Assembly: GCA_964017185.1 (NCBI GenBank)
Contig: OZ024869.1
Coordinates: 57,190,761 to 57,254,760, forward strand
Length of the DNA stretch: 64,000 nt
Direction: 5' to 3'
DNA from: Rugalucina vietnamica
Taxonomy: Eukaryota > Mollusca > Bivalvia > Lucinida > Lucinidae
The notes under the pieces: generated by a model
Seen by the model: only the letters and a program-made list of their open reading frames with translations
What the model was told of the DNA's origin: nothing
Database searches by the model: none
In this document: piece by piece, positions 5,756 to 51,297 of the stretch
How the letters are laid out: each line of letters opens with the position of its first letter
Position numbering within the stretch: the stretch's first letter is position 1
Program-made: the position numbers and the translations under genes

Positions 5756-5812
5756 ATGAAGATAGATATTCATACACATATTTTGCCCGAAAACTGGCCG
5801 GACCTGAAAGAG
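5756..5812 (+). CDS. ACMSD: ACMSD exon 1
   Basis: Codes [19 protein letters not shown] (residues 1-19), the family's usual N-terminus. His6 and His8 form the HxH zinc-binding pair at the end of the first barrel strand. The ATG is the family start. The exon ends at GAG|GTAGG, phase 0. Confidence 0.93.
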
Positions 5813-7525: not shown

Positions 7526-7559
<34 letters not shown>

Positions 7560-13281: not shown

Positions 13282-13325
<44 letters not shown>

Positions 13326-16235: not shown

Positions 16236-16294
<59 letters not shown>

Positions 16295-19200
16295 ATTATT
16301 TTATTAATTAATCAAGTTAAACGTTTACAAACAAAGTTCAATCCAGCAGCAAAAACTACATACCGAATTTAATTCAAACATAGCTCCAATACTTACATAG
16401 AGATCCCGGAACGACAAACTTTACATCTACAATTAAAGGATGTATATATGCATATCGACAAGACTTGTGAATAAACTGTGGAGAGAGAAGTTTGTCAGTG
16501 TAGAAATAAGATTTAATGAACCAACAGGCTATTTCCATGCGTTAACAAGAAAAAAAAAAATGACAAATTAAAAATCCTATTTTATTGTGCACAAGTTACC
16601 CCACCCACCAAAGACAAATTAAAGTATTTTGGTATGGTTTCTGAAATAAATCGATTCAAACGTGTTTTTGTGTATTATCTAACCATTTTCATAACATTTT
16701 GTTGTCAATTTGAGTTCATACACCCAAAAGAACATTGTTTGAAGACAATTTTCGTTCAACCTATGGAATTCACGTACTCTATATTTTCGCGCACCCCTTC
16801 CCTGCATTTGCGTGTTTACACGGAACCTGCACAGGTTTACAGCTTGACAACATTGTGCATCGTGTTCACCATGCTTCAAGCTTTAAAATGATGTATAGGA
16901 ACCTTGGTACCTCGGGGGGTGAAGCGAACTCCGTAAATAGCCCACATATTTGATTTCATCTAAGGGACTAATTTACACACAAGAGCTCCAAAGCTAATGA
17001 TTATGCCTAAAAACAATTTAAACAATCTCAGAATTTTAGTAAAAATTCATTTTTTGACAAAATTGCAATTTTTTAGAAAAACAAGAGATAAATATTGGAA
17101 AAAAATGAGTAAAATCGAAATTCATTCCAATTTTGGATCACTATGAGATGTTTTGACACCAAAAGCTGCCGCCTGTTTTCTTTCTGTTAAAGGCAATCTC
17201 ATGCCAAAGATGTTGCATGAGCACTTTTTTGATATGCAGCTTTTTAAAAATTCTGAATTTGGATGGGTTGAAAACCAGTACCTCCAGTTAAACATTAATG
17301 GGTGCTGCATGTTGTGTTTGTAAGAAAAAAACAACCCATTTTAATGGAGAGATGAGTTACTTAGAATTTAAACAAAATCGCAAAAATCATAATTTTTGGT
17401 CAAAAATAATGTTTTTGTCAAAACAAAAATCAATTTTTAGTTTTTTGCTTTAAATGATTGCTTTCAGTATCTCGAATGAGGATGTGAAACGAATTCGGGG
17501 TTGGAAGCCCAGAAATAAAGATGTGGGCTTTTTGCTGCATCCCAAATTTTGGTGTTTTCAAAAACATGCCTTTTTGCACATTTTTATTTAATATTTTAAG
17601 AAGAAATATTCATTTGTCATTCAGGAAGTCCAGCCCTTTAAGATGGTATTAAGTTTTAAAAGTTTATTTGAAAAATATCTATACCACGGGGGTGATTCAA
17701 TTGATACCACCTGTGCTGTCGTCCGAGACGTTACTGCATATATTGCTGTCGTCCGAGTATTCCGGTTTTCGTCCGAGTACTACGGCTGTCGTTATCATCG
17801 GTGCCCCTATTTCAGTGCCCACAGGGCCAACAGATCGTCGCTAATCAGCGCATTTATCACCGAAAATTGTCAAGAAGGTATTTATCGTTATTACAAACGT
17901 CTTTCCAGTTTTCTTAACATAAAGACAATCACAAGAATTTATTTTTAGTACAAAACATCGTTTTCTCGCGTGTTTTTCTTACTTTCAACATATGCAACCA
18001 TTCCATGTAAGCGAAAGTATCAGGGATATTACGCTTTCCATTTAGCCTTTGAAAGCTGTAATCATTTACCCAATTCATTGCGTCCTTCAAATTTTATTTT
18101 CCGTTTTTAAAAAGCGTGATACGGCTGTCGCTGACCCCTGATACGGCTGGCGTTTGTTTATTGGTCAGTACGATACGGCTGTCGATAGTATTTCGAGATG
18201 GCATATTGCCCGTTGAAATCAAATTCAACATATTTTATGCATTTATTTTGTAGTTTCTGAATAATTTTCGTATGCTACTCATAAAAGGACGACTATACAG
18301 ATCGCTAGAAAGCATAACAGTAACCTCGAACAACACAAATGCTACAAATAGTCTCTTCTGTAATGTCATATAAGATGATTAGTGAAGTCACATGAATGAA
18401 CAATGAGTCTCTAAGTACAAACTTTGCATAACATGTTTTCTGAAAATGAAAACGATTTATAAGCTGACACAGTGTCGGGAAACAAACTCCGTGTATGTTA
18501 AATTTTGTGCATACGTTAGAGAGCGCGTTCGTACTGCACATACTGTCGGAAATCACGTATTGCTATATTCATATGAAAGAAAATATTTCACACATATCCT
18601 ATCATATGCGGCACAGTATAAGAACTCTTTAGCAAACTTTTCTTTCTTTGAAACATTTGTCAACATCCAGAACACTTCGGAACTTAAATGTTTCGAAGTG
18701 TTCTCGGGGTCCAGATGAAAGTATGTGATTTTTTTACAGTTTCATATACAGTCATATGATAGTACATTTAAAATATTTCACAAATGACTCATGCAAACGG
18801 CATCACAAATTTTCCGAACTTAGGTCGGACAACGCACTCGAATAGCAGAATAACTAGCTCTTTCCCAACGAGGTAGTCATCCGGCTATGTCGCAACCAAA
18901 ACCAAAGGCAACGAACACAACAGAGAGGCAGGCAAAATAAGCAGTCGTATCATGAAGATAACCCACCTTTCGTGGGACGCCGATGAGCGTATTTACTATG
19001 GACAACGCCGAAAACCATTTTTCCTGGGCACATAGAGGTAGGCACAATTAGCAATCGTATCATGAAGATAAACCACTTGTCCTGGGATGCCGATTAGCTT
19101 ATTTACTGGGAAAAACAGCGAAAGCCATTTCTCCTGGGGACATTTTATAAAGAAAGAAAATAAATATAGTGTTCAACTGGCGAACATATGTAACAAAAAA

Positions 19201-22200
19201 AAAATGATGTAATTAAGTTAAAATCCAAACCAGAAATTTAGAGATTATTATTATAATCAACAAAACCATTTTTTCCTAGAAAAGCGAAACCACCATTTCT
19301 ACGAGGACTGCGAAAAGGAAAAACGGTATGATGAAATTAAACAACGTGCTAAGCTGGCTAAAAGATATAAATATACAAAATGCCGATGCAGTAAAGCCAA
19401 AACCAGAAGATACTAGGCGAATAGGAGACCAACTTTACTAGTTCACCAAAAAGTAAATTCGCGAAACCAAGAAAAGGGGGGTGGGAGTCAAATAAAAATA
19501 TGAAATCATTGTATTCGACTGGAAATCAACATCCCAACCCAAAGACATCCCAAGCGGGACAGAAAGAACAACACAATGTATCACAGAGCACAACCAACAC
19601 ACGTGAACCTTTGTATCGCAGAGCAGAATATTACATTTCGCGCCATTTAATGACATTCGAGAGCGACTACAAGAAAATATACACATGAATGCAATATTAT
19701 AAGGTATTATGTACTAGTCATTTGTAACAACGGGCCCCCACCCCCGGGGAATAGCGGGAATTTTGACTTTTGGTCCAGCAAATCATCGCTAAAAGCAATC
19801 CTCGCTAAAAACCCACCCTGTGAGGACTGCTTGTTGGTAAAATCACTGCTGTTTTCTCCACAGGCTGCTTTAGATTTCACGGCCCGTTTCCCACGCATTG
19901 TCGTAGCAAAACTTTGGTCAAAGCCCTGCTCATTTCCACGGCTGCCCCCGCCCTCCCCATGGATGGGGGCGGACGGGCGTGGTTACAAATGGCTAAAGTG
20001 CATTACACAAATGATCAATCAGTCAATTTCGCCACAGTGTCTTTTTCCGCTGTAAGACAATCGTGACGCTCATCAAAGTTTAAATTGTATACATTACACT
20101 TTCTGATTTGAATAATGCATGCGAAAATGAGAAAGCAAGGCAACCGGTCACTGTATAGACGACGTTCAATATTTATATTTGAAAGTGCGGCGGTGTGTCA
20201 TGTAAATATCTTACTTCGTGTAACCAACCCACCGTGGTTTATCGTTAGAAATATGAACAAAGTGAAATAGATGTTATTTCATTCATATTTCTGAAATCTA
20301 GGATGCCTTAAACTTAGTTTTACCCATATATTTTCAATTATTACCTGTTCTAAATTGTCGACATCCGTAACGAGTTTAACCGACAGCCGTATCACACATA
20401 TTTACAACTGATCGACAGCAGTAACACCAAAAGTTAAACGCCCCTTCAAACCCTTTCTGCTTTGGATTTTTTATAACTGTAAAAGGTTTTATCTTTGCAG
20501 TTATGTTTTCCATGTTGTTCAATAAATGGTTAGAACTGAGAGATGCTGATTATTAAAGTATTTGCATATTTATGTGATTTTTGCTTTTTTACGATTAAAC
20601 ACATGGTTGTATGCAAACTAGCGACCCAAAAACCCGTACAAACATATTGCACGATAGACAAATATCTAACAACACATTCTAGCAGAAAAAAGGATAAATA
20701 ATACCTTCAAATACAATCACGAGCCGCTTTTACGTGTGTACTGTTTGTGTAACGACAGCCGTAGTACTCGGATGGAAACCGGAATACTCGGACGACAGCA
20801 ATATATGCAGTAACGTCTCGGACGACAGCACAGGTGGTATCAATTGAATCACCCCCGTGTATACTAGACATTATTTTAAAATGAGAAAAATATTAACTGG
20901 TGCAAAACTTCTTTTGATGAGTATATATTCTTTATTTCCTCCATGTAGGAGAGCACATAGTACATGATACATACAATACACAATGTACAATATACAAACA
21001 AATAGGACAAAACAAAGCGAGCAAATAAACATAATAATAGAAAGACAAAAATACACCTATCAAGCAATACATAGAAAGGTTTGATTGAAAGTAGTCAATT
21101 TGCCTACTAACCCAAATGTTTTACAAAAGAGCGTAAAACAAAGATACAAGGCAAATTAAACACGTATATTGAGTTAAGATAACTCTTTGTGGACGCTCCC
21201 TTGCCGAAACGAAATACAAGAGAGTAGGAATGAGCATGTCTGAAGTCAAAAAACTATTGTCAGTCTTACAGATTAAATTTTAGCCACATGCTCCGGAGAT
21301 GTGGAAAGGCCACACTCCAGAATTCAGACATATTAATATCGAGGATAAAATCAGGACGTACTTCTCCTAAGAGAAAAGAAGTCAGAGAAATTTTATCCAG
21401 GCCTCTTAGATACATATAAACTTGGGGATTGAATACATAGAATCTATCTTTCATTATGTAAACATGCACATTCACTAATGCAATGATCAACGGCATTGTT
21501 ATAAAAACAATTGCATTTATGGCATACCTGAACATCACAATCCAGAATACTTCGTCATCTGGACAACTATTTAAAGACTGATTTAGACTAACTGGTGAAA
21601 ATTCTTGAAATTGCAGCAATCATGAATGTCTGGCTTTCGCTGCCAGTTTTGTAAAGGGTCACTGATGAAGGTTCATTACCCGAAATTGTACAATATGGCC
21701 CACCTCTCTTTGAATGTTTTTACTGCTTCCAAAGGATCTAACAATTATATTTTATTTAATCTTTCAGCTCAGTCAATTTAAAACGAAATCCTCGTGGTAA
21801 CTCGTGAACAAATACCAGCATTATTCAACTGAAAGACCGACCGAAAAGAAATGGATATATTTTGTAGTAAATATATGATAAAGGCTGATATCAGTCACTA
21901 GTGACTTTTGATATCAGTGAGATTTGATATCAGTGAAATTTCATATCAATGAAAATACCAATTTTATCAAGTTTTGATATACATTGGTTTTCACTGTAAA
22001 GTATAAAATAAAAAAATGGCATGTCATGCTGGGACAAGTTCCTTCATATTGGAGCAGTCACTATAATAGTGAACAATAGAGACCATACGCTGCACTATGT
22101 CATTGAAGAAGAAATTCTTAATCAACTCGGCAGTCGGTTGTTGAGGACCGCGGTTGTTATCATATCAAAGGGCTTATTCTTATATAAAAGGCACAAAAAG

Positions 22201-25200
22201 GCTTTAAATTGCATGGTGTCTACGTTTCGTCCGTGGCTGACCTTGACAGAACGAAAAAAAAAAACAAAAAAAAACGTGTTACGCCTTGGTCAAAACGCAA
22301 CTGACCTCAAAATAACGTAACCTGTCGTAATAGAATCGTGATAGATCGTGGACAACCGTAACGTACCTTAGCGCCTCCGTGACACACCGGCTTATCACTA
22401 TCACGGCTTGTTACGGATATCGTAATACAACGTAATAAAACTTATTAACGAGACATAATAGATCTTGAAAGCAGAGAAATATATGACCACAGTTCCACGG
22501 CACGCTACGTTTCAAGCAAACGGGGCTGTACATAGTGTAAACGCAGTTTTAAAACGTCAGTTGCGGTACACTGAAAAAAGTCGCGACCCACCGCTAAAGA
22601 TTTGCAGATAAAATGCGAACGGAAAACGTAGCATTAACTGTTTCGTACCACAGAAAAGCTTACAGGTGCGCCTTTAACGACAATAAAATTATTTTTGTTT
22701 TTGCGTTCACAGACTTGGGCTATAAAGCGTGAAATACCTTGAATTTCGCTAAAAACGTCATGTAACATGTAACAAAAAAGGCCGTGCATGAAAACTCAAA
22801 TTATTCCTTTGGAGATAGTTATTGATGAAATTACGGGAAATTCGGCCAGTGAGTTTGGCAAATGGTATGCGTACGATGGCGTGATTTTCAGAACTTTGTG
22901 ATGAAAAACATCGAAATGATTACGAGACAAAACAAAAGTAAATTTTGTAACATTTTTTAAAATACCGCGATTTTTTTTCTAATTTCAATTTTCAAATCTG
23001 TATTAAAATTAAACGAACAAACAAATATATTACCGAAATACATAATTAGCGTACATGAGATAGGTGAAGTTTTAATCGAAATAATAGCCTATTCATATTA
23101 AATTCGGTATTAAGCCAGATCTTAAGAAATGTCCCAAAACGTCAATTTGCATAACATATTTCTTAGTTGTTTTCTTTCAGTGCATGCGCAAAAACATATG
23201 GCGTATTAAAAGACACTTATAAGGGCATAGAAAAAATACATCTAGATTGTATTTTTTGTCATTCTGCGTCTTCTATCTATGAAAATATAGACAAAAAACC
23301 AAATCTTAAAAAATGTACGCCTTTTTGACGTTATGACCATTGAGCCGCCCCATGGGAAAACCAACAATCTGCATATGCGAAAACAAAGGCGCAGATCTGC
23401 TTCGCAGTAACTGCGAAGCTGATCAGCGCCTTTGTTTTCGCTACTCGGATAGTACAATTCCTCTTCTACTTATATCCGAAATTTCAAGCTTATAGCTCTT
23501 TTCTGTGCTTGTACATATCGGTTTGTGTCCGACCTGTTCGGAAACCACATTGTTGGTTTTCCCACGAGGCGGCTCATATAATATCAACCGGCGACGGTCC
23601 CAATAAAAATTCTAGAAGTTTACAATAAAGTGAATACGAGTTGCCGGCATTAAATAGCGAGTGAGCGAGCCAAATATTTTTATTTGACAAAATATCATGT
23701 CACAGGACTGTGAGAACCTTCCATTTAACATACGATATTTAGCAATTATCATGAAGACTTTTAGGACGTTTCGGACGTTACAATTGCGTTCCGCAACTTT
23801 TGTCATAATTGAACAAGTACGTATGTAGCCTGGTATATAATTATGTATATTATTTTATTATGTATATTATTAGGCCAAGCCTGAAGACACACTGGATCTC
23901 TGTAAACTTCTCAACAATGATCTTGCCATGACAGTGAAGAAATACCCGACACGATTTGTAGGTCTGGGTACACTTCCCATGCAGCATGCAGACCTGGCAA
24001 TTCAGGAGTTAAAGAGATGTAAATACGAACTGGGTACGATCTTTGGTTTTCTATCTATTTTCCTGCCGTAAGGATCGGTCGCGGTAGCTCAGTCAGGAGC
24101 AAGGCTTCTGGAAATCTCTTCTTAGTTTGACGCTAACCTCGGACATATTTTTGTGGAACTTTAGTCCGTCTGCTGCTGATGGCCAACAATGTTCATGGAA
24201 TTACATTATTTGAAACTCGTCAAAACCTGACGGCAACGCAGAAAGTGTGTATTCTGTGTAGTTGTGCGCTGCTTGTCTGTCGGTGGTCATACATGTTATT
24301 CAGTCGCGAGTTACTGAGTTCTGGCATTTGACCTATTAAGCCAGCTCATTATAGATAACCATGCCTTTTTTGCAGGTTTTAATGGTGTACAGATTGGATC
24401 ACATGTAAATGACTGGAACCTCGACTCAGAGGAGCTGCAACCAATTTTTGCGGTAAAGTTGTCTCTCTAACCCCTCGGTATGCCACGGATGCGTCTTAAC
24501 CCCTGTTACTTTCCCTGTCTGCATACGTGCGTCCGTCCACTTTGCCATTGTTAGACCCAATAATGTGGTAACCATCTTGAAAGAAATATAGGCCACAATT
24601 CCACCTATATACTGAGTCCTCGACGGACCATTTGTAATTTTACTCGCTGAACCTTGGAATCAAGGATGGATCAACTTTGAATAATTATTAATTAGTTTTA
24701 AAAAAAACTTATATTAGCCGACTGCCGGCATGTGTCACTTTAAAACTACTTGTCCATTGCCATTGACTGATTTTTGTCAATACAACACATCGAAGGCATA
24801 CTATGGTTCAAATTTCTTTTATTATTCAGAAGCCATTATTCATTTGTTACATGCAGGCAGCAGAAGAGCATGGTGTATCCATCTTTGTTCACCCCTGGGA
24901 TATGGAGATGGGAGGTAGAATGTCTAAGTATTGGTTGCCATGGCTGGTAGGTGAGTACATGTAAGTTATCATTGGTTGCCATGGCTGGTAGGTGAGTACA
25001 TGTAGGTTATCATTGGTTGCCATGGCTGGTAGGTGAGTACATGTAAGTTATCATTGGTTGCCATGACTGGTACATGTAGGTGAGTACATGTAAGTTATCA
25101 TTGGTTGCCATGGCTGGTAGGTGAGTACATGTAGGTTATCATTGGTTGCCATGGCTGGTAGGTGAGTACATGTAGGTTATCATTGGTTGTCATGGCTGGT

Positions 25201-28200
25201 AGGTGAGTACATGTAGGTTATCATTGGTTGTCATGGCTGGTAGGTGAGTACATGTAGGTTATCATTGGTTGTCATGACTGGTAGGTGAGAACATGTAAGT
25301 TATCATTGGTTGTCATGGCTGGTAGGTGAGTAAATGTAGGTTATCATTGGTTGCCATGGCTGGTAGGTGAGTACATGTAAGTTATCATTGGTTGCCATGA
25401 CTGGTACATGTAGGTGAGTACATGTAAGTTATCATTGGTTGCCATGGCTGGTAGGTGAGTACATGTAGGTTATCATTGGTTGCCATGGCTGGTAGGTGAG
25501 TACATGTAAGTTATCATTGGTTGCCATGACTGGTACATGTAGGTGAGTACATGTAAGTTATCATTGGTTGCCATGGCTGGTAGGTGAGTACATGTAGGTT
25601 ATCATTGGTTGTCATGGCTGGTAGGTGAGTACATGTAGGTTATCATTGGTTGTCATGGCTGGTAGGTGAGTACATATAGGTAATCATTAGTTGCCATGGC
25701 TGGTAGGTGAGTACATGTAGGTTAGCATTGGTTGCCATGGCTGGTAGGTGAGTACATGTAGGTTATCATTGGTTGCCATGGCTGGTAGGTGAGTACATGT
25801 AAGTTATCATTGGTTGCCATGGCTGGTAGGTGAGTACATGTAAGTTATCATTGGTTGCCATGACTGGTACATGTAGGTGAGTACATGTAAGTTATCATTG
25901 GTTGCCATGGCTGGTAGGTGAGTACATGTAGGTTATCATTGGTTGCCATGGCTGGTAGGTGAGTACATGTAGGTTATCATTGGTTGTCATGGCTGGTAGG
26001 TGAGTACATGTAGGTTATCATTGGTTGTCATGACTGGTAGGTGAGAACATGTAAGTTATCATTGGTTGTCATGGCTGGTAGGTGAGTAAATGTAGGTTAT
26101 CATTGGTTGCCATGGCTGGTAGGTGAGTACATGTAAGTTATCATTGGTTGCCATGGCTGGTAGGTGAGTACATGTAGGTTATCATTGGTTGTCATGGCTG
26201 GTAGGTGAGTACATGTAGGTTATCATTGGTTGCCATGGCTGGTAGGTGAGTACATGTAGGTTATCATTGGTTGCCATGGCTGGTAGGTGAGTACATGTAG
26301 GGTATCATTGGTTGCCATGGCTGGTAGGTGAGTACATGTAGGTTATAATTGGTTGCCATGGCTGGTAGGTGAGTACATGTAGGTTATCATTGGTTGTCAT
26401 GGCTGGTAGGTGAGTACATGTAGGTTATCATTGGTTGCCATGGCTGGTAGTCGAGTACATGTAGGTTATCATTGGTTGCCATGGCTGGTAGGTAAGAACA
26501 TGTAGGTTATCATTGTTTGCCATGGCTGGTAGGTGAGTACATGTAGGTTATCGTTGGTTGTCATGGCTGGTAGGTGAGTTCATGTAGGTTATCGTTGGTT
26601 GTCATGGCTGGTAGGTGAGTACATGTAAGTTATCATTGGTTGCCATGGCTGGTACATGTAGGTGAGTACATGTAGGTTATCATTGGTTGTCATGGCTGGT
26701 AGGTGAGTATATGTAGGTTATCATTGGTTGCCATGGCTGGTAGGTGAGTACATGTAGGTTATCGTTGGTTGTCATGGCTGGTAGGTGAGTACATGTAGGT
26801 TAATATCATTGGTTGCAATGGCTGGTAGGTGAGTACATGTAGGTTATCATTGGTTGTCATGGCTGGTAGGTGAGTACATGTAGGTTATCATTGGTTGTCA
26901 TGGCTGGTAGGTGAGTACATATAGGTTATCATTGGTTGTCATGGCTGGTAGGTGAGTACATGTAGGTTATCATTGGTTGCCATGGCTGGTAGGTGAGTAC
27001 ATGTAGGTTATCATTGGTTGTCATGGCTGGTAGGTGAGTACATGTAGGTTATCATTGGTTGCCATGGCTGGTAGGTGAGTACATGTAGGTTATCATTGGT
27101 TGTCATGACTGGTAGGTGAGTACATGTAGGTTATCATTGGTTGTCATGGCTGGTAGGTGAGTACATGTAGGTTATCATTGGTTGTCATGGCTGGTAGGTG
27201 AGTACATGTAGGTTATCATTGGTTGCCATGGCTGGTAGGTGAGTACATGTAGGTTATCATTGGTTGTCATGACTGGTAGGTGAGTACATGTAGGTTATCA
27301 TTGGTTGTCATGACTGGTAGGTGAGTACATGTAGGTTATCATTGGTTGTCATGGCTGGTAGGTGAGTACATGTAGGTTATCATTGGTTGTCATGGCTGGT
27401 AGGTGAGTACATGTAGGTTATCATTGGTTGTCATGGCTGGTAGGTGAGTACATGTAGGTTATCATTGGTTGTCATGGCTGGTAGGTGAGTACATGTAGGT
27501 TATCATTGGTTGTCATGGCTGGTAGGTGAGTACATGTAGGTTATCATTGGTTGTCATGGCTGGTAGGTGAGTACATGTAGGTTATCATTGGTTGTCATGG
27601 CTGGTAGGTGAGTACATGTAGGTTATCATTGGTTGTCATGGCTGGTAGGTGAGTACATGTAGGTTATCATTGGTTGTCATGGCTGGTAGGTGAGTACATG
27701 TAGGTTATCATTTGTTGTCATGGCTGATAGGTGAGTATAGTAGGTTATCGTTGGTTGTCATGGCTGCTAGGTGAGTACATGTAGGTTATCATTGGTTTCA
27801 ATGGTATAGTACATGTAGGTTATCATTGGTTGCCATGGCTGGTACATGTAGGTGAGTACATGTAGGTTATTATTGGTTGCCATGGCTGGTACATGTAGGT
27901 GAGTACATGTAGGTTATCATGGTTGCCATGGCTGGTACATGTAGGTGAGTACATGTAGGTTATCATTGGTTGCCATGGCTGGTAGGTGAGTATATGTAGG
28001 TTATCATTGGTTGCCATGGCTGGTAGGTGAGTACATGTAGGTTATCATTGGTTGGCATGGCTGGTAGGTGAGTACATATAGGTTATCATTGGTTGCCATG
28101 GCTGGTAGGTGAGTACATGTAGGTTAGCATTGGTTGCCATGGCTGGTAGGTGAGTACATGTAGGTTATCATTGGTTGCCATGGCTGGTAGGTGAGTACAT

Positions 28201-31200
28201 GTAGGTTAGCATTGGTTGCCATGGCTGGTAGGTGAGTACATGTAGGTTAGCATTGGTTGCCATGGCTGGTAGGTGAGTAAATGTAGGTTATCATTGGTTG
28301 CCATGGCTGGTAGGTGAGTACATGTAAGTTATCATTGGTTGCCATGGCTGGTAGGTGAGTACATGTAGGTTATCATTGGTTGTCATGGCTGGTAGGTGAG
28401 TACATGTAGGTTATCATTGGTTGCCATGGCTGGTAGGTGAGTACATGTAGGTTATCATTGGTTGCCATGGCTGGTAGGTGAGTACATGTAGGGTATCATT
28501 GGTTGCCATGGCTGGTAGGTGAGTACATGTAGGTTATCATTGGTTGCCATGGCTGGTAGGTGAGTACATGTAGGTTATCATTGGTTGTCATGGCTGGTAG
28601 GTGAGTACATGTAGGTTATCATTGGTTGCCATGGCTGGTAGTCGAGTACATGTAGGTTATCATTGGTTGCCATGGCTGGTAGGTAAGAACATGTAGGTTA
28701 TCATTGTTTGCCATGGCTGGTAGGTGAGTACATGTAGGTTATCGTTGGTTGTCATGGCTGGTAGGTGAGTACATGTAGGTTATCGTTGGTTGTCATGGCT
28801 GGTAGGTGAGTACATGTAAGATATCGTTGGTTGTCATGGCTGGTAGGTGAGTACATGTAGGTTATCATTGGTTGCCATGGCTGGTAGTCGAGTACATGTA
28901 GGTTATCATTGGTTGCCATGGCTGGTAGGTAAGAACATGTAGGTTATCATTGTTTGCCATGGCTGGTAGGTGAGTACATGTAGGTTATCGTTGGTTGTCA
29001 TGGCTGGTAGGTGAGTACATGTAGGTTATCATTGGTTGCCATGGCTGGTAGGTGAGTACATGTAGGTTATCGTTGGTTGTCATGGCTGGTAGGTGAGTAC
29101 ATGTAGGTTATCGTTGGTTGTCATGGCTGGTAGGTGAGTACATGTAGGTTATCATTTGTTGTCATGGCTGATAGGTGAGTACATGTAGGTTATCATTGGT
29201 TTCAATGGTATAGTACATGTAGGTTATCATTGGTTGCCATGGCTGGTACATGTAGGTGAGTACATGTAGGTTATTATTGGTTGCCATGGCTGGTACATGT
29301 AGGTGAGTACATGTAGGTTATCATGGTTGCCATGGCTGGTACATGTAGGTGAGTACATGTAGGTTATCATTGGTTGCCATGGCTGGTAGGTGAGTATATG
29401 TAGGTTATCATTGGTTGCCATGGCTGGTAGGTGAGTACATGTAGGTTATCATTGGTTGCCATGGCTGGTAGGTGAGTACATATAGGTTATCATTGGTTGC
29501 CATGGCTGGTAGGTGAGTACATGTAGGTTAGCATTGGTTGCCATGGCTGGTAGGTGAGTACATGTAGGTTATCATTGGTTGCCATGGCTGGTAGGTGAGT
29601 ACATATAGGTTATCATTGGTTGCCATGGCTGGTAGGTGAGTACATGTAGGTTAGCATTGGTTGCCATGGCTGGTAGGTGAGTACATGTAGGTTAGCATTG
29701 GTTGCCATGGCTGGTAGGTGAGTACATGTAGGTTATCATTGGTTGTCATGGCTGGTAGGTGAGTACATATAGGTTATCATCAGTTGCCATGGCTGGTGGG
29801 TGAGTACATGTAGTCTTTCGAGAAGGATTTGACGCATTTATTAAACTCTTAAAGCTCTTAAACGATAAACGTCAAACGACGTTTTAGCGTTACACTTTAT
29901 TGCATTAATAGCATGCCTATTTTACATCGTTTTATGTATAACGTCAACGACCTATCTTTAAGTCCCCTAAGCCCCATTGTCTCGGCTGGATCGAATAAAA
30001 TCGTTTTGAGAAAAGAAGCCTGAAAGATTTACGTTCCCATAGCGCATACTATGTTATGGTTTGGAAGCTTAATTGTAGAATTATATAAGAAAGAATGCGT
30101 ATTTTCCGAAAACCTGTATTTTCATTTTGCTATTCCATGGCAACCATGGGGTCACATAACTTTAATGTTCCCATTTCTGTGACGTAAACGATGATGCAGA
30201 ATATCGTTATACACCTCTCATCATACGACTCTGTCTTGGTATGCCAGGCGTTAGCAAACGTGTACAAAAATCGTGTTTCTCGTAGCCGAAATGGACTATC
30301 TATGTCCGATTGGGATAAAAGAGCCCAAAATAGACTTTTCACGGTGAGTACATGTAGGTTATCATTGGTTGCCATGGCTGGTAGTCGAGTACATGTAGGC
30401 TATCATTGGTTGCCGTGGCTGGTAGGTGAGAACATGTAGGTTATCATTGGTTGCCATGGCTGGTAGGTGAGTACATGTAAGTTATCATTGGTTGCCATGG
30501 CTGGTACATGTAGGTGAGTACATGTAGGTTATCATTGGTTGTCATGGCTGGTAGGTGAGTATATGTAGGTTATCATTGGTTGCCATGGCTGGTAGGTGAA
30601 TACATGTAGGTTATCGTTGGTTGTCATGGCTGGTAGGTGAGTACATGTAGGTTATCATTGGTTGTCATGGCTGGTAGGTGAGTACATGTAGGTTATCATT
30701 GGTTGCCATGGCTGGTAGGTGAGTACATGTAGGTTATCATTGGTTGTCATGGCTGGTAGGTGAGTACATGTAGGTTATCATTGGTTGCCATGGCTGGTAG
30801 TCGAGTACAAGAAGGGTATCATTGGTTGCCATGGCTGGTAGGTGAGTACATGTAGGTTATTATTGGTTGCCATGGGCGGTAGGTGAGTACATGTGGGTTA
30901 TCATTGGTTGCAATGGCTGGTAGGTGAGTACATGTAGGGTATCATTGGTTGTCATGGCTGGTAGGTGAGTACATGTGGGTTATCATTGGTTGCCATGACT
31001 GGTACATGTAGGTGAGTACATGTAGGTTATCATTGGTTGCCATGGATGGTAGGTGAGTACATGTGGGTTATCATTGGTTGCCATGGCTGGTAGGTGAGTG
31101 CATGTAGGTTATCATTGGTTGTCATGGCTGGTAGGTGAGTAAATGTAGGTTATCATTGGTTGCCATGGCTGGTAGGTGGGTACATGTGGGTTATCATTGG

Positions 31201-34200
31201 TTGCCATGGCTGGTAGGTGAGTGCATGTAGGTTATTATTGGTTGCCATGGCTGGTAGGTGAGGTGAGTACATGTAGGTTATAATTGGTTGCTATGGCTGG
31301 TAGGTGAGTACATGTAGGTTATCATTGGTTGCCATGGCTGGTAGGTGAGTACATGTAGGTTATCATTGGTTGCCATGGCTGGTATGTGAGTACATGTAGG
31401 TTATCATTGGTTGTCATGGCTGGTAGGTGAGAACATGTAGGTTATCATTGGTTGCCATGGCTGGTAGGTGACTACATGTAGGTTATCATTGGTTGTCATG
31501 GCTGGTAGGTGAGTACATGTAGGTTATCATTGGTTGCCATGGCTGGTAGGTGAGTACATGTAGGTTATCATTGGTTGTCATGGCTGGTAGGTGAGTACAT
31601 GTAGGTTATCATTGGTTGCCATGGCTGGTAGGTGAGTACATGTAGGTTAGCATTGGTTGCCATGGCTGGTAGGTGAGTACATGTAGGTTATCATTGGTTG
31701 CCATGGCTGGTAGGTGAGTACATATAGGTTATCATTGGTTGCCATGGCTGGTAGGTGAGTACATGTAGGTTATCATTGGTTGCCATGGCTGGTAGGTGAG
31801 TACATGTAGGTTATCATTGGTTGTCATGGCTGACTACATGTAGGTTATCATTGGTTGTCATGGCTGGTAGGTGAGTACATGTAGGTTATCATTGGTTGCC
31901 ATGGCTGGTAGGTGAGTACATGTAGGTTATCATTGGTTGCCATGGCTGGTATGTGAGTACATGTAGGTTATCATTGGTTGTCATGGCTGGTAGGTGAGAA
32001 CATGTAGGTTATCATTGGTTGTCATGGCTGGTAGGTGAGAACATGTAGGTTATCATTGGTTGCCATGGCTGGTAGGTGACTACATGTAGGTTATCATTGG
32101 TTGTCATGGCTGGTAGGTGAGTACATGTAGGTTATCATTGGTTGCCATGGCTGGTAGGTGAGTACATGTAGGTTATCATTGGTTGTCATGGCTGGTAGGT
32201 GAGTACATGTAGGTTATTATTGGTTGCCATGGCTGGTAGGTGAGTACATGTAGGTTATCATTGGTTGCCATGGCTGATAGGTGAGTACATGTAGGTTATC
32301 ATTGGTTGCCATGGCTGATAGGTGAGTACATGTAGGTTATTATTGGTTGCCATGGCTGATAGGTGAGTACATGTAGGTTAGCATTGGTTGCCATGGCTGG
32401 TAGGTGAGTACATGTAGGTTATCATTGGTTGCCATGGCTGGTAGGTGAGTACATGTAGGTTATCATTGGTTGCCATGGCTGGTAGGTTAGTACATGTAGG
32501 TTATCATTGGTTGCCATGGCTGGTAGGTGAGTACATGTAGGTTATCATTGGTTGCCATGGCTGGTAGGTGAGTACATGTAAGTTATCATTGGTTGCCATG
32601 GCTGGTTGGTGAGTACATATAGGTTATCATTGATTGTCATGGCTGGTAGGTGAGTACATGTAAGTTATCATTGGTTGCCATGGCTGGTAGGTGAGTGCAT
32701 GTAAGTTATCATTGTTTGTCATGGCTGGTAGGTGAGTACATGTAGGTTATCATTGGTTGCCATGGCTGGTAGGTGAGTACATGTAGGGTATCATTGGTTG
32801 CCATGGCTGGTAGGTGAGTACATATAGGTTATCATTGGTTGCCATGGCTGGTAGGTGAGTACATGTAGGTTATCATTGGTTGCCATGGCTGGTAGGTGAG
32901 TACATGTAGGTTATCATTGGTTGTCATGGCTGACTACATGTAGGTTATCATTGGTTGTCATGGCTGGTAGGTGAGTACATGTAGGTTATCATTGGTTGCC
33001 ATGGCTGGTAGGTGAGTACATGTAGGTTATCATTGGTTGCCATGGCTGGTATGTGAGTACATGTAGGTTATCATTGGTTGTCATGGCTGGTAGGTGAGAA
33101 CATGTAGGTTATCATTGGTTGCCATGGCTGGTAGGTGACTACATGTAGGTTATCATTGGTTGTCATGGCTGGTAGGTGAGTACAGTTGGTTATCATTGGT
33201 TGCCATGGCTGGTAGGTGAGTACATGTAGGGTATCATTGGTTGCCATGGCTGGTAGGTGAGTACATGTAGGTTATCATTGGTTGTCATGGCTGGTAGGTG
33301 AGTACATGTAGGTTATCATCGGTTGTGATGGCTGGTAGGTGAGTACATGTAGGTTATCATTGGTTGCCATGGCTGGTAGGTGAGAACATGTAGATTATCA
33401 TTGGTTGCCATGGCTGGTAGGTGAGTACGTGTAGGTTATCATTGGTTGCCATGGCTGGTAGGTGAGTACATATAGGTTATCATTAGTTGTCATGGCTGGT
33501 AGTTGAGTACATGTAGGTTATCATTGGTTGCCATGGCTGGTAGGTGAGAACATGTAGGTTATCATTGGTTGTCTTGACTGGTAGGTGAGAACATGTAGGT
33601 TATCATTGGTTGCCATGGCTGGAGATGGGAGGTAGAATGTCTAAGTATTGGTTGTCATGGCTGGTAGGTGAGTACATGTGGGTTATCATTGGTTGGGTTG
33701 CCATGGCTGGTAGGTGAGTACATGTAGGTTATCATTGGTTGCCATGGCTGGTACATGTAGGTGAGTACATGTAGGTTATCATTGGTTGCCATGGTTGGAA
33801 CATGTATGTGAGTACATGTAGGTTATCGTTGGTTGTCATGGCTGGTAGGTGAGTATATGTAGGTTATCATTGGTTGCCATGGCTGGTAGGTGAGTACATG
33901 TAGGTTATCGTTGGTTGTCATGGCTGGTAGGTGAGTACATGTAGGTTAATATCATTGGTTGCAATGGCTGGTAGGTGAGTACATGTAGGTTATCATTGGT
34001 TGTCATGGCTGGTAGGTGAGTACATGTAGGTTATCATTGGTTGTCATGGCTGGTAGGTGAGTACATGTAGGTTATCATTGCTTGTCATGGCTGATAGGTG
34101 AGTACATGTAAGTTATCGTTGGTTGTCATGGCTGGTAGGTGAGTACATGTAGGTTATCATTGCTTGTCATGGCTGGTAGGTGAGTACATGTAAGTTATCG

Positions 34201-37200
34201 TTGGTTGTCATGGCTGGTAGGTGAGTACATGTAGGTTATCATTGCTTGTCATGGCTGATAGGTGAGTACATGTAGGTTATCATTGGTTGTCATGGCTGGT
34301 AGGTGAGTACATGTAGGTTATCATTGGTTGCCATGGCTGGTAGGTGAGTACATGTAGGTTATCATTGGTTGTCATGGCTGGTAGGTGAGTACATGTAGGT
34401 TAATATCATTGGTTGCAATGGCTGGTAGTCGAGTACATGTAGGTTATCATTGGTTTCAATGGTATAGTACATGTAGGTTATCATTGGTTGCCATGGCTGG
34501 TACATGTAGGTGAGTACATGTAGGTTATTATTGGTTGTCATGGCTGGTAGGTGAGTACATGTAGGTTATTATTGGTTGCCATGGCTGGTAGGTGAGTACA
34601 TGTAGGTTATCATTGGTTGTCATGACTGGTAGGTGAGTACATGTAGGTTATCATTGGTTGTCATGGCTGGTAGGTGAGTACATGTAGGTTATCATTGGTT
34701 GTCATGACTGGTAGGTGAGTACATGTAGGTTATCATTGGTTGTCATGGCTGGTAGGTGAGTACATGTAGGTTATCATTGGTTGCCATGGCTGGTAGGTGA
34801 GTACATGTAGGTTATCATTGGTTGTCATGGCTGGTAGGTGAGTACATATAGGTAATCATTAGTTGCCATGGCTGGTAGGTGAGTACATGTAGGTTAGCAT
34901 TGGTTGCCATGGCTGGTAGGTGAGTACATGTAGGTTATCATTGGTTGCCATGGCTGGTAGGTGAGTACATGTAGGTTATCATTGCTTGTCATGGCTGATA
35001 GGTGAGTACATGTAGGTTATCATTGGTTGCCATGGCTGGTAGGTGAGTACATGTAGGTTATCATTGGTTGTCATGGCTGGTAGGTGAGTACATATAGGTT
35101 ATCATTGGTTGCCATGGCTGGTAGGTGAGTACATGTAGTCTTTCGAGAAGGATTTGACGCATTTATTAAACTCTTAAAGCTCTTAAACGATAAACGTCAA
35201 ACGACGTTTTGGCATTACACTTTATTGCATTAATAGCATGCCTATTTTACATCGTTTTATGTATAACGTCAACGACCTATCTTTAAGTCCCCTAAGCCCC
35301 ATTGTCTCGGCTGGATCGAATAAAATCGTTTTGAGAAAAGAAGCCTGAAAGATTTACGTTCCCATAGCGCATACTATGTTATGGTTTGGAAGCTTAATTG
35401 TAGAATTATATAAGAAAGAATGCGTATTTTCCGAAAACCTGTATTTTCATTTTGCTATTCCATGGCAACCATGGGGTCACATAACTTTAATGTTCCCATT
35501 TCTGTGACGTAAACGATGATGCAGAATATCGTTATACACCTCTCATCATACGACTCTGTCTTGGTATGCCAGGCGTTAGCAAACGTGTACAAAAATCGTG
35601 TTTCTCGTAGCCGAAATGGACTATATATGTCCGATTGGGATAAAAGAGCCCAAAATAGACTTTTCACGGACCTGTTCAGTATACAAGTATATTGACATAA
35701 TCAATGATATTGCGATAATCAATGATATCACAGTTTCCGTATCAAAGATAACCAGAGGACCAATGGTCCTGTAAACACTCACCTGAGATCTGAGATATCT
35801 ACCAATAAATGTTTGAATATATTGTTCATATACATGTATATAACCCCTGGGGCCAATTGCTTTTTCAAAATCATAGTCCATTTCCTGAAGGTTTTCTCTT
35901 CAGTAACAGCTTTCTGCATTATCTGACCCAAGTTGACCTTGCCTTCACATTTTTCATGGTCATCAGAAGGTCATGATTTATAAACACATTGCAGTACTCT
36001 TAAGTCCCAATTGCTTCATGTCTAGTTTCAATAGGTTCAGCAGTTCCAGAGAAGAAGATTTTGAAGAGTTTTTACCTTGTATGGGCCCCAGGGGGGTACT
36101 CTCATTTTTTGTGGATACATAGGCGAGGCCCCAGCTTCTACCCCTAAACCCAAAAAATTACTGAGATTTGCTGACCACCCCCAAAAAAATACCAGTCCTA
36201 TCAGGCATACCCAAAAAAATACTTGAACTTTTAGCTTATCCCAAAAAATTACGTATTCATCTTTTTTATGCCTTTGATGAAATTTTATCACATCCATATG
36301 ATCTAAGCTGTTGGTGGGACGTTAAATCCCAAATCAACCAACCAACAGAACACGTCACAATACAGTTAGTATATGTAGGAACTAGGAAGTAAATACCAAG
36401 TTGGATAAAATTTAAAGATTTTCAAAGTGCAAGTCTTAATGATGGTTTTGATTCCATTTGATTTGCAATCCAAACAACATCATCATGATCAAGCTTCCAA
36501 AATTTCACCGAGACCAGTCATAAGGCATGGTCGCAAACAAAATTGAATCTTAAGGCCTTGTAAGACATAAATGTAAGCCACTCTTATCTTTATAGAAATA
36601 AAGAGATTTCCCAAGAAATGTGCAAAACCCAAAAAATTACTTAGAATTATAGATGACCCCAAAAAAATAATTCAGAAAAGGCATGACCCCCAAAAAATAT
36701 CCATAAAAAGCTCACTACCCTAAAAAATAACTAATTTTTCTGAAAACCCAAAAAAATACGGAAATTCAAAATTTTGACCCCAAAAAAGTCAGCCTCGCCT
36801 ATTTATACAGAAAATTTCAGAGTACCCCCCCCCCTGGGGTATGGGCATGGCGACCATCTTGTACATGTGACCTGGATTATTTATATACACATTGGTTTTC
36901 CCCATTAAAATGCATAGGCGACTTATGTTGACCTTGCCGTAAAATAGGCCAAGATCATCCCAGAGTCACAATTTATAAATACATTGAAGTACTCTGTCAC
37001 TGATGCTACATGCCAAGTTTCGTTGAAATCGATCCACCAGTTCCGGAGAATATTTTTTAGGGTTTTTACCATATATGGGCATGGCGGCCATCTTGGTCAT
37101 GTGACCTGTATTATTTATATACACATTGGTTCTTCCTTCCTGTAGATACTTCATGCAAAACTTGGCTTTGATTGGTCAAGCGGTTTCAGAGAAGAAGATC

Positions 37201-40200
37201 TTTGAATATTTTTGTAATATACATGTATATTGCCCTAGGGTTGGGGCAGACTGACCCCTGGGGTCCATTTTTTTTTCAGAATCATAAATCTTCAGTCCAT
37301 TTGCCAATTTCCTGCACGTCATTCCCGTCAAAGGACATTTTAAGAGTTTTCCCATTCAAATGCATGGGTGACATATGTTGACCTTGTCGTAAAATAGGCC
37401 ATGGTTATCACAGGGTCATGATTTATAAACACATTGTAGTACTTTATTCCCCGATGCCTCATGCAAAGTTTTTGTTGAAATCGGTCCAGTGGTTCCAGAG
37501 AAGAAGATTTTGAGGGGGTTTCACTATATATTGGCATGACGGCCGTCATGGTCATGTGACCTGGATTATTTATAAACACTTTCGTCCCCCCTATAAAATT
37601 TGTCTTTGATTGGCCAAGCGGTTTCAGAGAAGAAGATCTTTGAAAATTGTGGACGAAGGACAGACGCCGGATCATGGCCATTCATAAGCTCTCATTGTGA
37701 GCCTAAACGGCTCAGTTGAGCTAACCAACCAGAGGACCAATGGTCCTGTAAACGCTCACCTGAGATCTGCTGCATATACCAATAAATATGTTTGAATATT
37801 ATGGTAAATAACCCCAGTGCAGGGACAGATGAAGCCCTTGGGCCATTTTCTTTTTTCAGAATAATCAATATTCTGTCCATTTGCCAATTTCCTGCCGGTT
37901 TTCCCTTCAAATGACATTTTAAGAGTTTTCCCCGCGACATATGTTAACCTTGTCGTAAAATAGGTCAAGGTCTTCACAGGGTCATGATTTATATACACAT
38001 TGTAGTACTTTAGCCATCGATGCTTCATGCCAAGTTTTGTTGAAATCGGTCCACCGGTTCCGGAGAAGAAGATTTTTGGGGCGATATATTGCCCCGGGGT
38101 GGAGGCATATGAGCCTCTTGGGTCCTTTTTTCAGAATCATTAATATTCAGTCCCACTGCCCATTTTCTGCAAGACTTTCACTTTAAATGACATTTTAAAA
38201 GTTTTCCTCATTCAAATGCATTGACGACCTATATTGACCTTGCCGTAAAATAGGTCAAGGTCATCACAGGGTCATGATTTATATATACATTGTAGTGCTT
38301 GAGCCATAGATGCTTCATGCCAAGTTTCGTTGAAATCGGTCTACCGGTTCTGGAGAATAAGATTTTTGAAGGGTTTTTACCATATATGGGCATGGCAGCC
38401 ATCTTGGTCATGTGACCTGGATTTCTCATATACTAATTGGTTCCCCTTTCCTATAGAGGCGTCATATAAAATTTAGCTTTGGTTGGGCAAGCGGTTTTAG
38501 AGAAGAAGATCTTTGAAAATCGTGGACAACGAACGGATGGACGACGACGACGGACAGACGCCGGGTGCCTGCTTATCCTATAAGCTCACCTGTGAGTCTT
38601 CGGCTCAGGTGAGCTAAAATGCAGATAATGCAACAAATAAAATGCGTTCAACTGTACTTTTAGGTGCTCTACTGTAAATGGAAAACAATTGGTTTACTTT
38701 CTTTTATTTTCTCAGGGATGCCGGCTGAAACAGCCACTGCTATTTGCTGTATGACAATGGGTGGTGTTCTTGAAAGATTTCCCGGCCTCAAAGTTTGCTT
38801 TGCGCATGGAGGTATGCCGTTGTGCTGGTCACGATGTAAGGGTTCAATGCCGGTTGCTTGGCTTGCGCAAAGAAGGAATTCTGGGCTGTCAGCCATAAAT
38901 TTCTTGAAGGTTTGAAACGAATGCGCACTTGACGTTGGTAAACCAATCATTAAGGGGAGGAACCAATGACATATCGACAGATGCCCATAATTTCCAGAAT
39001 CCACGAAAGTAAAACATTACATTTTATCTTTAGACAAGGTCTCTGGACTTAATTTCAGAGAAAAACACAAACTCTACGAGGTTGAAATTGTAGTTAGTTC
39101 ACGGTTCCATTTCCAAAGGCATTCGCCGGCCAAACAAGTGATCATTAGGGCACAATGAACGGTAAAGAGACAGTTTGGCTTGTACGTTATTTTCCAGGTG
39201 GTGCCTTTCCATTCACAGTTGGTCGAATAGAGCACGGTTACAACGTGAGGCCAGATCTGTGTGCTACTAACTGCAAAACAAGTCCTAGAAATTTCCTTGG
39301 CAAGTTTTATACGGATGCACTAGTACACGATCCTCGGGCGCTAGATTTGTTAGTGGATGTTATTGGAGAGGTATCATTTGCTAATGTAACACACTTTTAT
39401 GAAATTAACCAAACACCTTTATTTTAGGTAAATAAAATTAATGGTGTGGTAATTTTGGGGCCTTTTTTAAGCGGTGTCTCAAGTACATTAACAATCCACT
39501 GGTGTGTTAAAAGTCGACCATTAATGATTTAGTTTAGAAGTTAAACAATACATCTGAATTATTTCGGTCAGTGGGTTAGAAAATCTTTTAATTCGGTGTT
39601 CCGTTGCTAATTTGCTAATAATAAAAATGGAAATGATCGTTTGTCTCTCACTAATGAGAAGGAATATCGTTATTACGATGGTTGACCAGGCCAATTCTAG
39701 CTCTACACTGTCGGTTGCAAGTATCATGGAATCTGCTGGTGGCCAATTGGTCTTTGCTTTGTATTCTTTGCGCTTTCTTTCAGCTTCACAGATTTTTTTT
39801 TTCATAGAGAGCTGCTCCTTTGTTAATGAGACCTCGACACTTTGATCGCTCCGGTGCAGTCTGTTCCCCTGACCCCATTGGTATTTCAGAGTCTTCAGGG
39901 AAGCTTTGAGGGTGTCTTTGTAGCTTTTCTTCTGGCCACCTTGAGAGCGCTTTCCCATAGACAACATTCGTTGGAAGTCGCGCATTAGGCATTCTTATAA
40001 CATGGTCTGAATCTTGCATTTCAGCTACCATCTGCTTGTATAGAGTCCTTAAAATGTAATTTCTTTCCCCAGACCACCAGGGACTGAAATGACCTCCCTG
40101 ACTCTCGGTTTTCCACCGCTGAAATGTCAGATGATTGTGTGTCCAAGTTCGCTTCACTCGTGCGTTCTAGGGACTAATTTCTCCCCCATCCGAACCCCCT

Positions 40201-46200: not shown

Positions 46201-47733
46201 TGAATTCAAATAAATAAATTAAAATCAAACTAACACAATTATATTATTTTCATGAGTTTCTAAAGTGTTTCCGTAGAGGACGCATAGTGTTTCAGTCGCC
46301 CCATAGTTTACTTTTGATGTTCGCCATTTTCACATACACGTAGAAGCAATTTTGGACACTACACATTCTGTCAAAGTGCACAAATTATTCATTTGTTTCA
46401 CAAATAATGGTGTATACAGTCTTCACATTGATACGTGTTTTCTTAAGATAATTGCCTCGTGTATTGTCCCTTTTAACAGAATGGACGCTGGTCTTGTTTG
46501 GAAAGAGCTAGTAATTTTGTTTTTTATGCCTGTTGTTAAATTGCTTGTGATGTGTTGCACCGCCATGTCTCTCCCGCCTGGTGTCTATGTTAGGATGGGA
46601 AATTTAATTGTATAGATTCTTGGTCATTCTATTGTTACTTGATTACAGATAAGGGTCTCATTGTGCTCATTTCTGATCATAATGATGCGTTTTTATACAA
46701 TTTTCGGCCCGTTAAAGATTATTTTAGTTCATATGAGACGGGTAAATCAGTAACAGGAGGAAAAGAGGAGAACCCTGAGAAAACGAACTTGCACACCCAC
46801 AAGCAGAACTTGGTTTTGTGTCACCCTTGATTGTAAGACTGATCAATTGGGCAGCAACCTAAGGCGAAGAGTTCATTGTCTTGGTGTTGGTAGTTGCCAA
46901 AGCGATATTGCTGCGCTGAAGGTTGTTTTAATCCATTTTATCACATGTTGTGTGATGTTGCATCAATCTTTGTTGTAAGGACTTTGATTGTATCGCAAGC
47001 ATATACGATGGTGCTGACACTGATAGACAATACCCGAATACACATATTCATGTACAGTATACCACGCAGACATTTCACGTGTCCATTTACCGACCTTTTA
47101 TACAAACGTACCGCCATTCATGATTCTAATATATATACATGTAACAGGGGAAATTTAATTGTGTTGTGTTTGGCTATTGAAATTTTGTCCTAGGGCCCAT
47201 CGACAAAACAAAGATCATATCAAGCCGGATCAGTTATCAAACCACATTGCAGCTTGGAAAGCCGAACGCAGTTGGTGTTAAGGGCATGCGTTCTTTTGTC
47301 CTTTTTTAACATTTAAAAGTACGATTTCTATCATGATAAAGTTTATACTGAACCTATTAAGCAAGCCTCTATGGTGCAGTGGTTATTTCACGTGCCTTAT
47401 AAACCAGAGATGGCAGGTTTGATCCGGGTCTTCTTGCGTCTGTCGGATGAGACTATAAACTGAGGTCTCGTTTCCATATGACCTTTGCTGTTGGATTAAC
47501 GCTCAAATCAACAAACCGATTCAATTTATTATTTATTTAAATTCAGATTGAGTACGAAGCTTATGTGCTTATATGCTTGCCCGATTCCGGACGCAAAGAT
47601 GGGTCCGAATGAGTAAGGTTGAGAATGATCAAATGTTGTAGATCTGCCGTCAGCATGTGTAATACATGTGCACTAAAACGGCACCCTATATCATGACGAT
47701 ATCATTACAAAACCTTATCAAGCAAAATACAGT

Positions 47734-47770
<37 letters not shown>

Positions 47771-49762: not shown

Positions 49763-49793
<31 letters not shown>

Positions 49794-51248: not shown

Positions 51249-51297
<49 letters not shown>

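Follow-up and report, generated by a model that had tools for sequence, protein, structure and literature searches.

The question raised by this locus is why an intron should carry ~230 tandem copies of the 5′ splice site at which it begins. The locus is an ACMSD-like gene of the lucinid bivalve Rugalucina vietnamica, contained in a 64,000-nucleotide stretch of DNA (the window; GenBank assembly GCA_964017185.1, contig OZ024869.1, positions 57,190,761 to 57,254,760 of the forward strand). Coordinates are window positions unless a contig is named, and a slash within a motif marks a splice junction. The answer that we consider probable is that splice junctions have been duplicated in tandem repeatedly and for the most part neutrally, which is tolerated as the donor of copy 1 remains attached to its exon.

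The gene model comprises nine coding exons that form an intact frame of 343 codons. The product matches the Pfam family Amidohydro_2 with an E-value of 1.1e-53, and a search with a peptide that combined two of the exons matched ACMSD chains in the PDB at 6.6e-22. A two-exon peptide returned no match in Pfam, and NCBIfam gave none for ACMSD. Judged by its full-length intact frame and its match to ACMSD, the host gene is ACMSD-like. No further ACMSD copy or second haplotype was found among the scored matches in the 1.09-Gb genome. The gene and the exons that flank the intron in question are as follows.

5756..51883, plus strand: ACMSD-like gene, nine coding exons (gene model, homology)
5756-5812, 7204-7398, 23874-24033 and 24376-24452, plus strand: coding exons 1-4
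24857-24950, 38716-38811, 39198-39370, 51151-51246 and 51800-51883, plus strand: coding exons 5-9
24857..24950, plus strand: exon 5, which contributes its last 21 bases to repeat unit 1 (gene model; ACMSD residues 163-194 matched in the PDB)
38716..38811, plus strand: exon 6, 96 bp, the skipping of which would preserve the frame (gene model)

An array of ~230 copies was indeed present where an earlier note on this DNA had placed it. Tandem Repeats Finder reported a period of 41 and 246.9 copies at 24930-35138, and wrap-around alignment divided the array into 247 segments. These comprise 231 clean complete units, 14 segments (units 118-131) that lie on or next to a 531-bp duplicate of the 3′ flank of the array, one unit (unit 211) that holds a copy of the exon sequence just upstream of the array, and one partial unit. 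The 41-bp unit, ATTGGTTGCCATGGCTGGTAG/GTGAGTACATGTAGGTTATC, consists of 21 exon and 20 intron bases and spans the exon 5/intron 5 junction. In the gene model, exon 5 ends within copy 1 and this exon-proximal unit provides the real 5′ splice site of the gene, in agreement with the proposal that an authentic splice donor gave rise to the repeat. All 112 genome matches to the unit, among those scored, fall inside this array, which is organized as follows.

24948..24957, plus strand: real 5′ splice site TAG/GTGAGTA, the first copy of the array (gene model; U1 duplex -12.0 kcal/mol)
24930..29813, plus strand: 41-bp donor minisatellite, segment I (Tandem Repeats Finder, wrap-around alignment)
29814..30344, plus strand: inner copy of the array's 3′ intron flank, matching 35139-35669 (alignment)
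30345..33620, plus strand: 41-bp donor minisatellite, segment II (Tandem Repeats Finder, wrap-around alignment)
33621..33650, plus strand: inner, partial copy of the exon 5 sequence upstream of the unit (the 5′ edge of the array)
33651..35138, plus strand: 41-bp donor minisatellite, segment III, up to the true 3′ edge (Tandem Repeats Finder, wrap-around alignment)

The inner copies bear on the size of the array. Positions 29801-30344 and 35126-35669 are identical at 541 of 544 positions, an alignment that takes in 13 array bases, and blocks of ~0.8-1.1 kb repeat within the array. Much of the copy number would be an assembly artefact if two haplotypes or repeated read blocks had been joined serially. 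The presence of the 3′ flank twice at 99% identity, the recurrence of the 5′ edge inside the array and the 94-98% identity of the blocks are consistent with such joining, but the segments differ in many unit variants and segment I alone contains more than 100 units, and we regard an artefact on this scale as unlikely.

Most copies downstream of the real donor are predicted to pair well with U1. Of the 1471 GT sites in the array, 192, the real one included, form a duplex with the 5′ end of U1 that is no weaker than that of the real donor, which at -12.0 kcal/mol is the strongest among the eight donors of the gene. Sites of this strength numbered 0-4 in ten dinucleotide shuffles and 0 in 53 kb of other plus-strand sequence, which bears out the view that most decoys match U1. 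If used, each of the 205 further TAGGTGAG donors (205 of 205) would lengthen exon 5 and thereby bring in a stop after codon 198, and leakiness would therefore be expected to lower the amount of functional mRNA. Skipping of exon 6 would keep the frame and yield 311 residues; skipping of exon 5 would not keep it. These properties would suit a selected U1 sponge or splicing brake, in which the decoys recruit U1 and either curb premature polyadenylation or cut ACMSD output by poison splicing. The human variable number tandem repeats (VNTRs) described at the end of this text point the same way: length tracks lower expression and more exon 19 skipping in ABCA7, and the CBS repeat is listed with reduced activity.

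The pattern of substitution within the units does not support maintenance of the donors. The statement that nearly every unit keeps the donor core holds for GT, which is kept in 219 of the 231 clean units, and is slightly overstated for the full AG/GTGAGT, kept in 195. The earlier note had named two observations that together would refute its reading, and the one on sequence, donor positions no better conserved than the others, was made. Over all units the 8 donor columns diverge by 0.031 vs 0.036 for the other 33 columns, and over distinct unit types both values are 0.055 (one-sided Mann-Whitney test for donor conservation, p 0.85 and 0.80, respectively). When the single fast column 9 is left out, the non-donor columns diverge by 0.024. 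Ranked from the most conserved among 41 circular windows, the donor was 28th-29th with 8 columns and 18th-21st with 9 columns, and GT alone was 31st-37th. Across the clean units and the distinct unit types, selection on the donor bases thus found no support in windows of 8, 9 or 2 columns. Dead donors have multiplied too, because six units have TC in place of GT in common. The exon copies are unconstrained and drifting: the same Pro-to-Ser change occurs in 93 of 231, and the 22 distinct exon variants comprise 4 synonymous and 18 non-synonymous changes (possible changes, 13 and 47). Since the donor columns vary like the rest, dead donors multiply and exon copies drift, the high donor content of the array is best taken as the outcome of recent common origin. 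The earlier description of the array as kept donor-competent is therefore not supported, and the case for a decoy device under maintenance at ACMSD is weakened. With donor columns that vary as much as the others, a GT that ranks with the less conserved pairs, donor-dead units amplified and arrays of like kind at unrelated genes (see below), a selected U1 sponge or brake is improbable. Length-dependent mis-splicing by the array is possible, and by analogy with ABCA7 a length-dependent effect on splicing and expression would be the most credible among U1 trapping, suppression of premature polyadenylation and an expression brake.

Neutral duplication of the junction would account for the array as follows. 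The minisatellite may have been founded when a short segment that spans the exon 5/intron 5 junction was duplicated in tandem, and it would then have grown to ~230 copies via ordinary unequal exchange or slippage together with kilobase-scale block duplications. A donor-spanning duplication would keep the first copy on the exon and place all others in the intron, and because those copies all lie in the intron the mRNA would be unchanged if splicing uses the first donor. Its use is expected, since it is transcribed before the others and alone adjoins exon 5 and its acceptor. The downstream donors would be inherited passively rather than selected. The likely cost would be leakiness, since decoy use would lead to a premature stop. 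An intron so long and so rich in donors may also lower expression or cause exon 6 skipping, in the manner reported for ABCA7. The same process would have acted independently at the exon 8 acceptor and at other junctions of the genome. The AG/GT at the join of each unit would also be compatible with recursive (ratchet) splicing, in which every TAG/GTGAGT acts as acceptor and donor and the intron is removed in 41-bp multiples. However, no pyrimidine tract is seen by eye before the AG in the unit TTGGTTGCCATGGCTGGTAG, and we consider recursive splicing highly improbable.

The exon 8 acceptor of the same gene carries a second junction minisatellite. A 37-bp unit, TTTCGTTACAG/GATCGTGTTATATGCGGGTCTGACTA, contains 11 intron and 26 exon bases, and the array of these units directly adjoins exon 8, such that the real acceptor is the last copy of the array. 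The array is split by insertions and comprises the following.

43649..44073, plus strand: 37-bp acceptor minisatellite, first block
44961..45080, plus strand: 37-bp acceptor minisatellite, second block
45081..50972, no strand assigned: insertion of ~5.9 kb splitting the acceptor array (inverted-repeat ends of ~300 bp, 82%; TTATA on both sides)
50973..51150, plus strand: 37-bp acceptor minisatellite, third block, adjoining exon 8
51151..51246, plus strand: exon 8, which contributes its first 26 bases to the 37-bp unit (PDB match to ACMSD 281-313)

All seven other exact TTACAG/GATC copies would give a premature stop if used. The 37-bp unit was found nowhere else in the genome among the scored matches, and the acceptor array arose independently of the donor array. 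Arrays thus occur at 2 of the 16 internal junctions of the gene. The other 14 showed no comparable arrays; the exon 3 acceptor had one weak match and the places matched by the exon 8 donor are CT microsatellite. An insertion of ~890 bp at 44074-44960 also lies within the acceptor array. A CT microsatellite (51247-51297) begins directly at the exon 8 donor AAG/GTGCTCTC, and this donor ties with that of exon 3 for the weakest U1 match among the donors of the gene.

The 1.09-Gb genome was surveyed for further cases with a pattern of three copies of AGGTRAGTB separated by gaps of 18-48 bases. Complete sub-lists were obtained for AGGTAAGTY, AGGTAAGTG, AGGTGAGTK and AGGTGAGTC (gaps to 45) and account for 311 of the 406 matches; the remainder, and arrays of mixed sub-class, enter the census where they are among the matches listed for AGGTRAGTB or AGGTGAGTB. 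The ACMSD array lies outside the pattern because its donors are followed by A. The census also omits a dispersed 41-bp family (10 places) and counts a 53-bp family of contigs C9 and C10 once. Sequence was examined for 37 of the 38 arrays found, and the simple repeat at C7:32882627 was judged from the listing. The wider pattern AGGTRAGT, outside the census, gave 982 matches vs 234 for its control, many of them from ACMSD.

At least 38 further donor-bearing arrays were identified. In 13 of these the first donor terminates an exon supported by homology, in 14 it terminates an open frame only, 9 are not exon-like and in 2 the edge was not reached. The homology-supported exons belong to peptidase C12, 7tm_3 receptor, PH_14, P-loop NTPase (NPHP3_N and others), ECM29, tyrosine phosphatase, PGAP1, SLD5, APC1, MRP1/ABCC, SLC6, Cep57 and MOR2-PAG1 sequences, with the peptidase C12, 7tm_3 and SLD5 matches scoring under Pfam's own cut-offs. 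The exon at L079 (L and C numbers are our handles for loci and contigs) was called a P-loop exon because its best match is a Schlafen helicase model. The names JADE, SC5D, GABA-B receptor, UCHL3, PLC-beta and Furry are used for what we take to be resemblances; among the families behind these names, Pfam supported peptidase C12, 7tm_3, PH_14 and MOR2-PAG1_C, and it returned no family for the JADE-like or the SC5D-like exon. Three control peptides from upstream of non-exon arrays gave no Pfam hits. A repetitive peptide from L066 reached 3e-4, below the cut-off, and E-values near 1e-4 from repeats are therefore unsafe. The arrays without homology support are the following.

Open frame only at the first donor: L051, L069, L070, L072, L076, L084, L087, L104, L107, L108, L109, L110, L111, L113
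Not exon-like where inspected: L042, L043, L045, L066, L068, L071, L083, L085, C7:32882627 (L045 judged by its simple composition of low complexity, L071 on 136 upstream bases; the edges of L042 and L066 are irregular)
Edge not reached: L105, L106

Several arrays have features of their own. L042 (C1:26186662-26188642, minus strand) is a 44-bp AT-rich array whose units often read TTCAG/GTAAGT, acceptor and donor back to back, and resembles a repeated recursive-splicing site. L068 (C2:17441144) is a 26-bp array of ~35 near-identical units with GTGAGT, followed by sequence that by eye looks tRNA-derived. At L080 (C5:40531642-40538978), in an ECM29-like gene, 48-bp donor units are listed, perhaps discontinuously, over ~7 kb. 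The 53-bp donor-bearing family (L111, L112) occurs at several nearby places (C9:1.23-1.62 Mb, C10:8.49 Mb) in both orientations and perhaps sits in a duplicated gene family. The dispersed 41-bp tandem family, which carries AGGTAAGT, occupies ten places on seven contigs (L061, L074 and eight others) and is perhaps a mobile satellite. The corresponding acceptor-array pattern gave at least 228 matches genome-wide vs 188 for its control. Exon-like sequence follows the array in 3 of 14 places checked (L090, L094, L099), a sample too small to compare donor and acceptor rates. Homology was detected for L094 alone, to the acetylcholine receptor with an E-value of 1.4e-4; in Pfam its E-value was just 0.16.

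Whether this recurrence exceeds chance bears on a further explanation, that splice donors in this genome are hot spots of minisatellite birth, for example by pairing of an exonic RAGT with the donor in duplication or by transcription-linked breaks. AGGTRAGTB triplets numbered 406 vs 168 for the reversed-motif control, with 37,610 vs 52,680 single sites, and the resulting per-site excess favors a hot spot. The excess over control is, however, confined to GTGAGT: AGGTGAGTB gave 201 vs 9, and no excess was found for AGGTAAGTY (97 vs 111) or AGGTAAGTG (47 vs 44). A single open frame at a first donor is weak exon evidence; a frame of at least 50 codons ends at 21% of 4000 random window positions, and a good acceptor lies inside the frame at 17.5%. 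Among 22 inspected arrays without homology support, such frames occurred in 13 (expected 4.7, P 1.2e-4) and good acceptors inside the frame in 10 (expected 3.9, P 0.002), as compared with 8 and 10, respectively, of the 13 homology-supported arrays. As a set these counts exceed expectation, and some of the 14 open-frame arrays therefore end real exons. If, as assumed, 30% of single donor-motif sites are real, the 13 homology cases among 36 resolved arrays fit such sites (P 0.26), whereas 27 of 36, with the 14 open-frame arrays added, would be extreme (P 3e-8). Any recurrence above chance thus hinges on the weak open-frame cases. The units of five arrays (JADE-like, L076, PLC-beta-like, phosphatase and SLC6) contain just 2-4 intron bases, which places the breakpoint of the duplication within the donor consensus and favors a hot spot. 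However, the census pattern demands intact donors and so biases breakpoints, and the exon share of the unit, 0.27 to 0.96, shows no clear preferred position (KS p 0.097; 19 arrays, ACMSD included). Donor hot spots are, on this balance, rather unlikely. At L051, L076, L078, L082 and L088, and by eye at L111, the exon contains an upstream donor-like stretch, the breakpoint is in the consensus and the unit has just 2-4 intron bases.

Neutral duplication of splice junctions has several points against it. By count of intact 8-mers, the ACMSD donor is the 12th best kept of the 41 windows. The flank copies and similar blocks within the array could be block duplications or could in part be an assembly artefact. 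Donor triplets per single site are 3.4x the control, although the matches cluster in arrays and are not independent. Under random placement, two junction arrays in one gene would have a probability of 0.025 with the 17 listed repeat loci and 0.002 with the 6 loci of unit 20-60 bp, both calculated post hoc. Decoy use need not grow with array length, because in ABCA7 the retention of one unit is independent of VNTR size, unlike the skipping of exon 19. Finally, we infer, rather than observe, the choice of the first donor, the leakiness and its cost, and neutrality itself.

With ACMSD included, homology supports at least 14 donor cases in this genome, and the full number is perhaps about double. 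Splice-junction VNTRs, familiar from a small number of human disease studies, therefore do not seem to be peculiar to humans. A wider formulation, in which splice junctions seed minisatellites genome-wide in dozens of unrelated genes, real sites are favored and the resulting class of splice-site VNTRs adds length-dependent expression noise, is conceivable but doubtful. Such arrays lend themselves to asking how the spliceosome selects the first donor when hundreds of the same strength follow it. They also caution medical geneticists and those who annotate genes that the edges of exons may conceal repeats. Most worth following are the recurrence across the genome and the presence of donor and acceptor arrays in one gene.

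The earlier note took donor-bearing minisatellites for a class not yet described. That view does not stand, as ABCA7, CBS and IFI6 (6-16) are described examples. The IFI6 repeat has a 12-bp unit in about 26 copies, a shorter unit and fewer copies than in the ACMSD array. Turri et al. in 1995 reportedly showed, to go by their title, that the IFI6/6-16 minisatellite provides multiple splice donor sites. The IFI6 minisatellite, like that of ACMSD, carries multiple donor sites, but there the use of downstream repeat units as splice donors was observed in mRNA (PMC4526556). Intron 18 of ABCA7 contains a 25-bp VNTR of 298-10678 bp, or ~12-427 units, in which the first GT is the donor of exon 18; transcripts that retain one unit are out of frame, the extent of this retention is independent of VNTR size, and a longer VNTR is accompanied by more exon 19 skipping and lower expression (PMC5954066). 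The ABCA7 and ACMSD arrays thus share a first unit that holds the real donor of the upstream exon and a similar scale, and in ABCA7 the next donor is likewise out of frame. Unlike the ACMSD unit, the ABCA7 unit starts exactly at GT and includes no exon bases; it is a human repeat, and an effect on splicing and expression was measured in ABCA7 alone.

The closest counterpart of the unit itself is the 31-bp VNTR of CBS, c.1444_1467+7(16_21), whose coordinates correspond to 24 exon and 7 intron bases (PMC2630376) and which is listed as an exon 13-intron 13 repeat with reduced activity (PMC1395315). In CBS as in ACMSD the unit spans an exon/intron junction and the gene contains a second junction duplication, the 68-bp 844ins68 of an intron/exon junction in CBS (PMC2630376) and the acceptor array in ACMSD. 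The genes, units and organisms differ, and CBS has 16-21 copies as compared with ~230. For the exon 8 array, a tandem duplication across an intron/exon boundary of potato RdRp (PMC4974935) similarly includes the 3′ splice junction; it is a single duplication that became a new intron, whereas the exon 8 case is an array. In human duplicated genes, internal tandem repeats have also been described where exons and introns meet (PMC2812944). Among the matches listed in the open-licence literature, no invertebrate or genome-wide account of donor minisatellites was found by title or the start of the abstract. The ACMSD array is a new, large case of the described donor-bearing (splice-junction) minisatellites.

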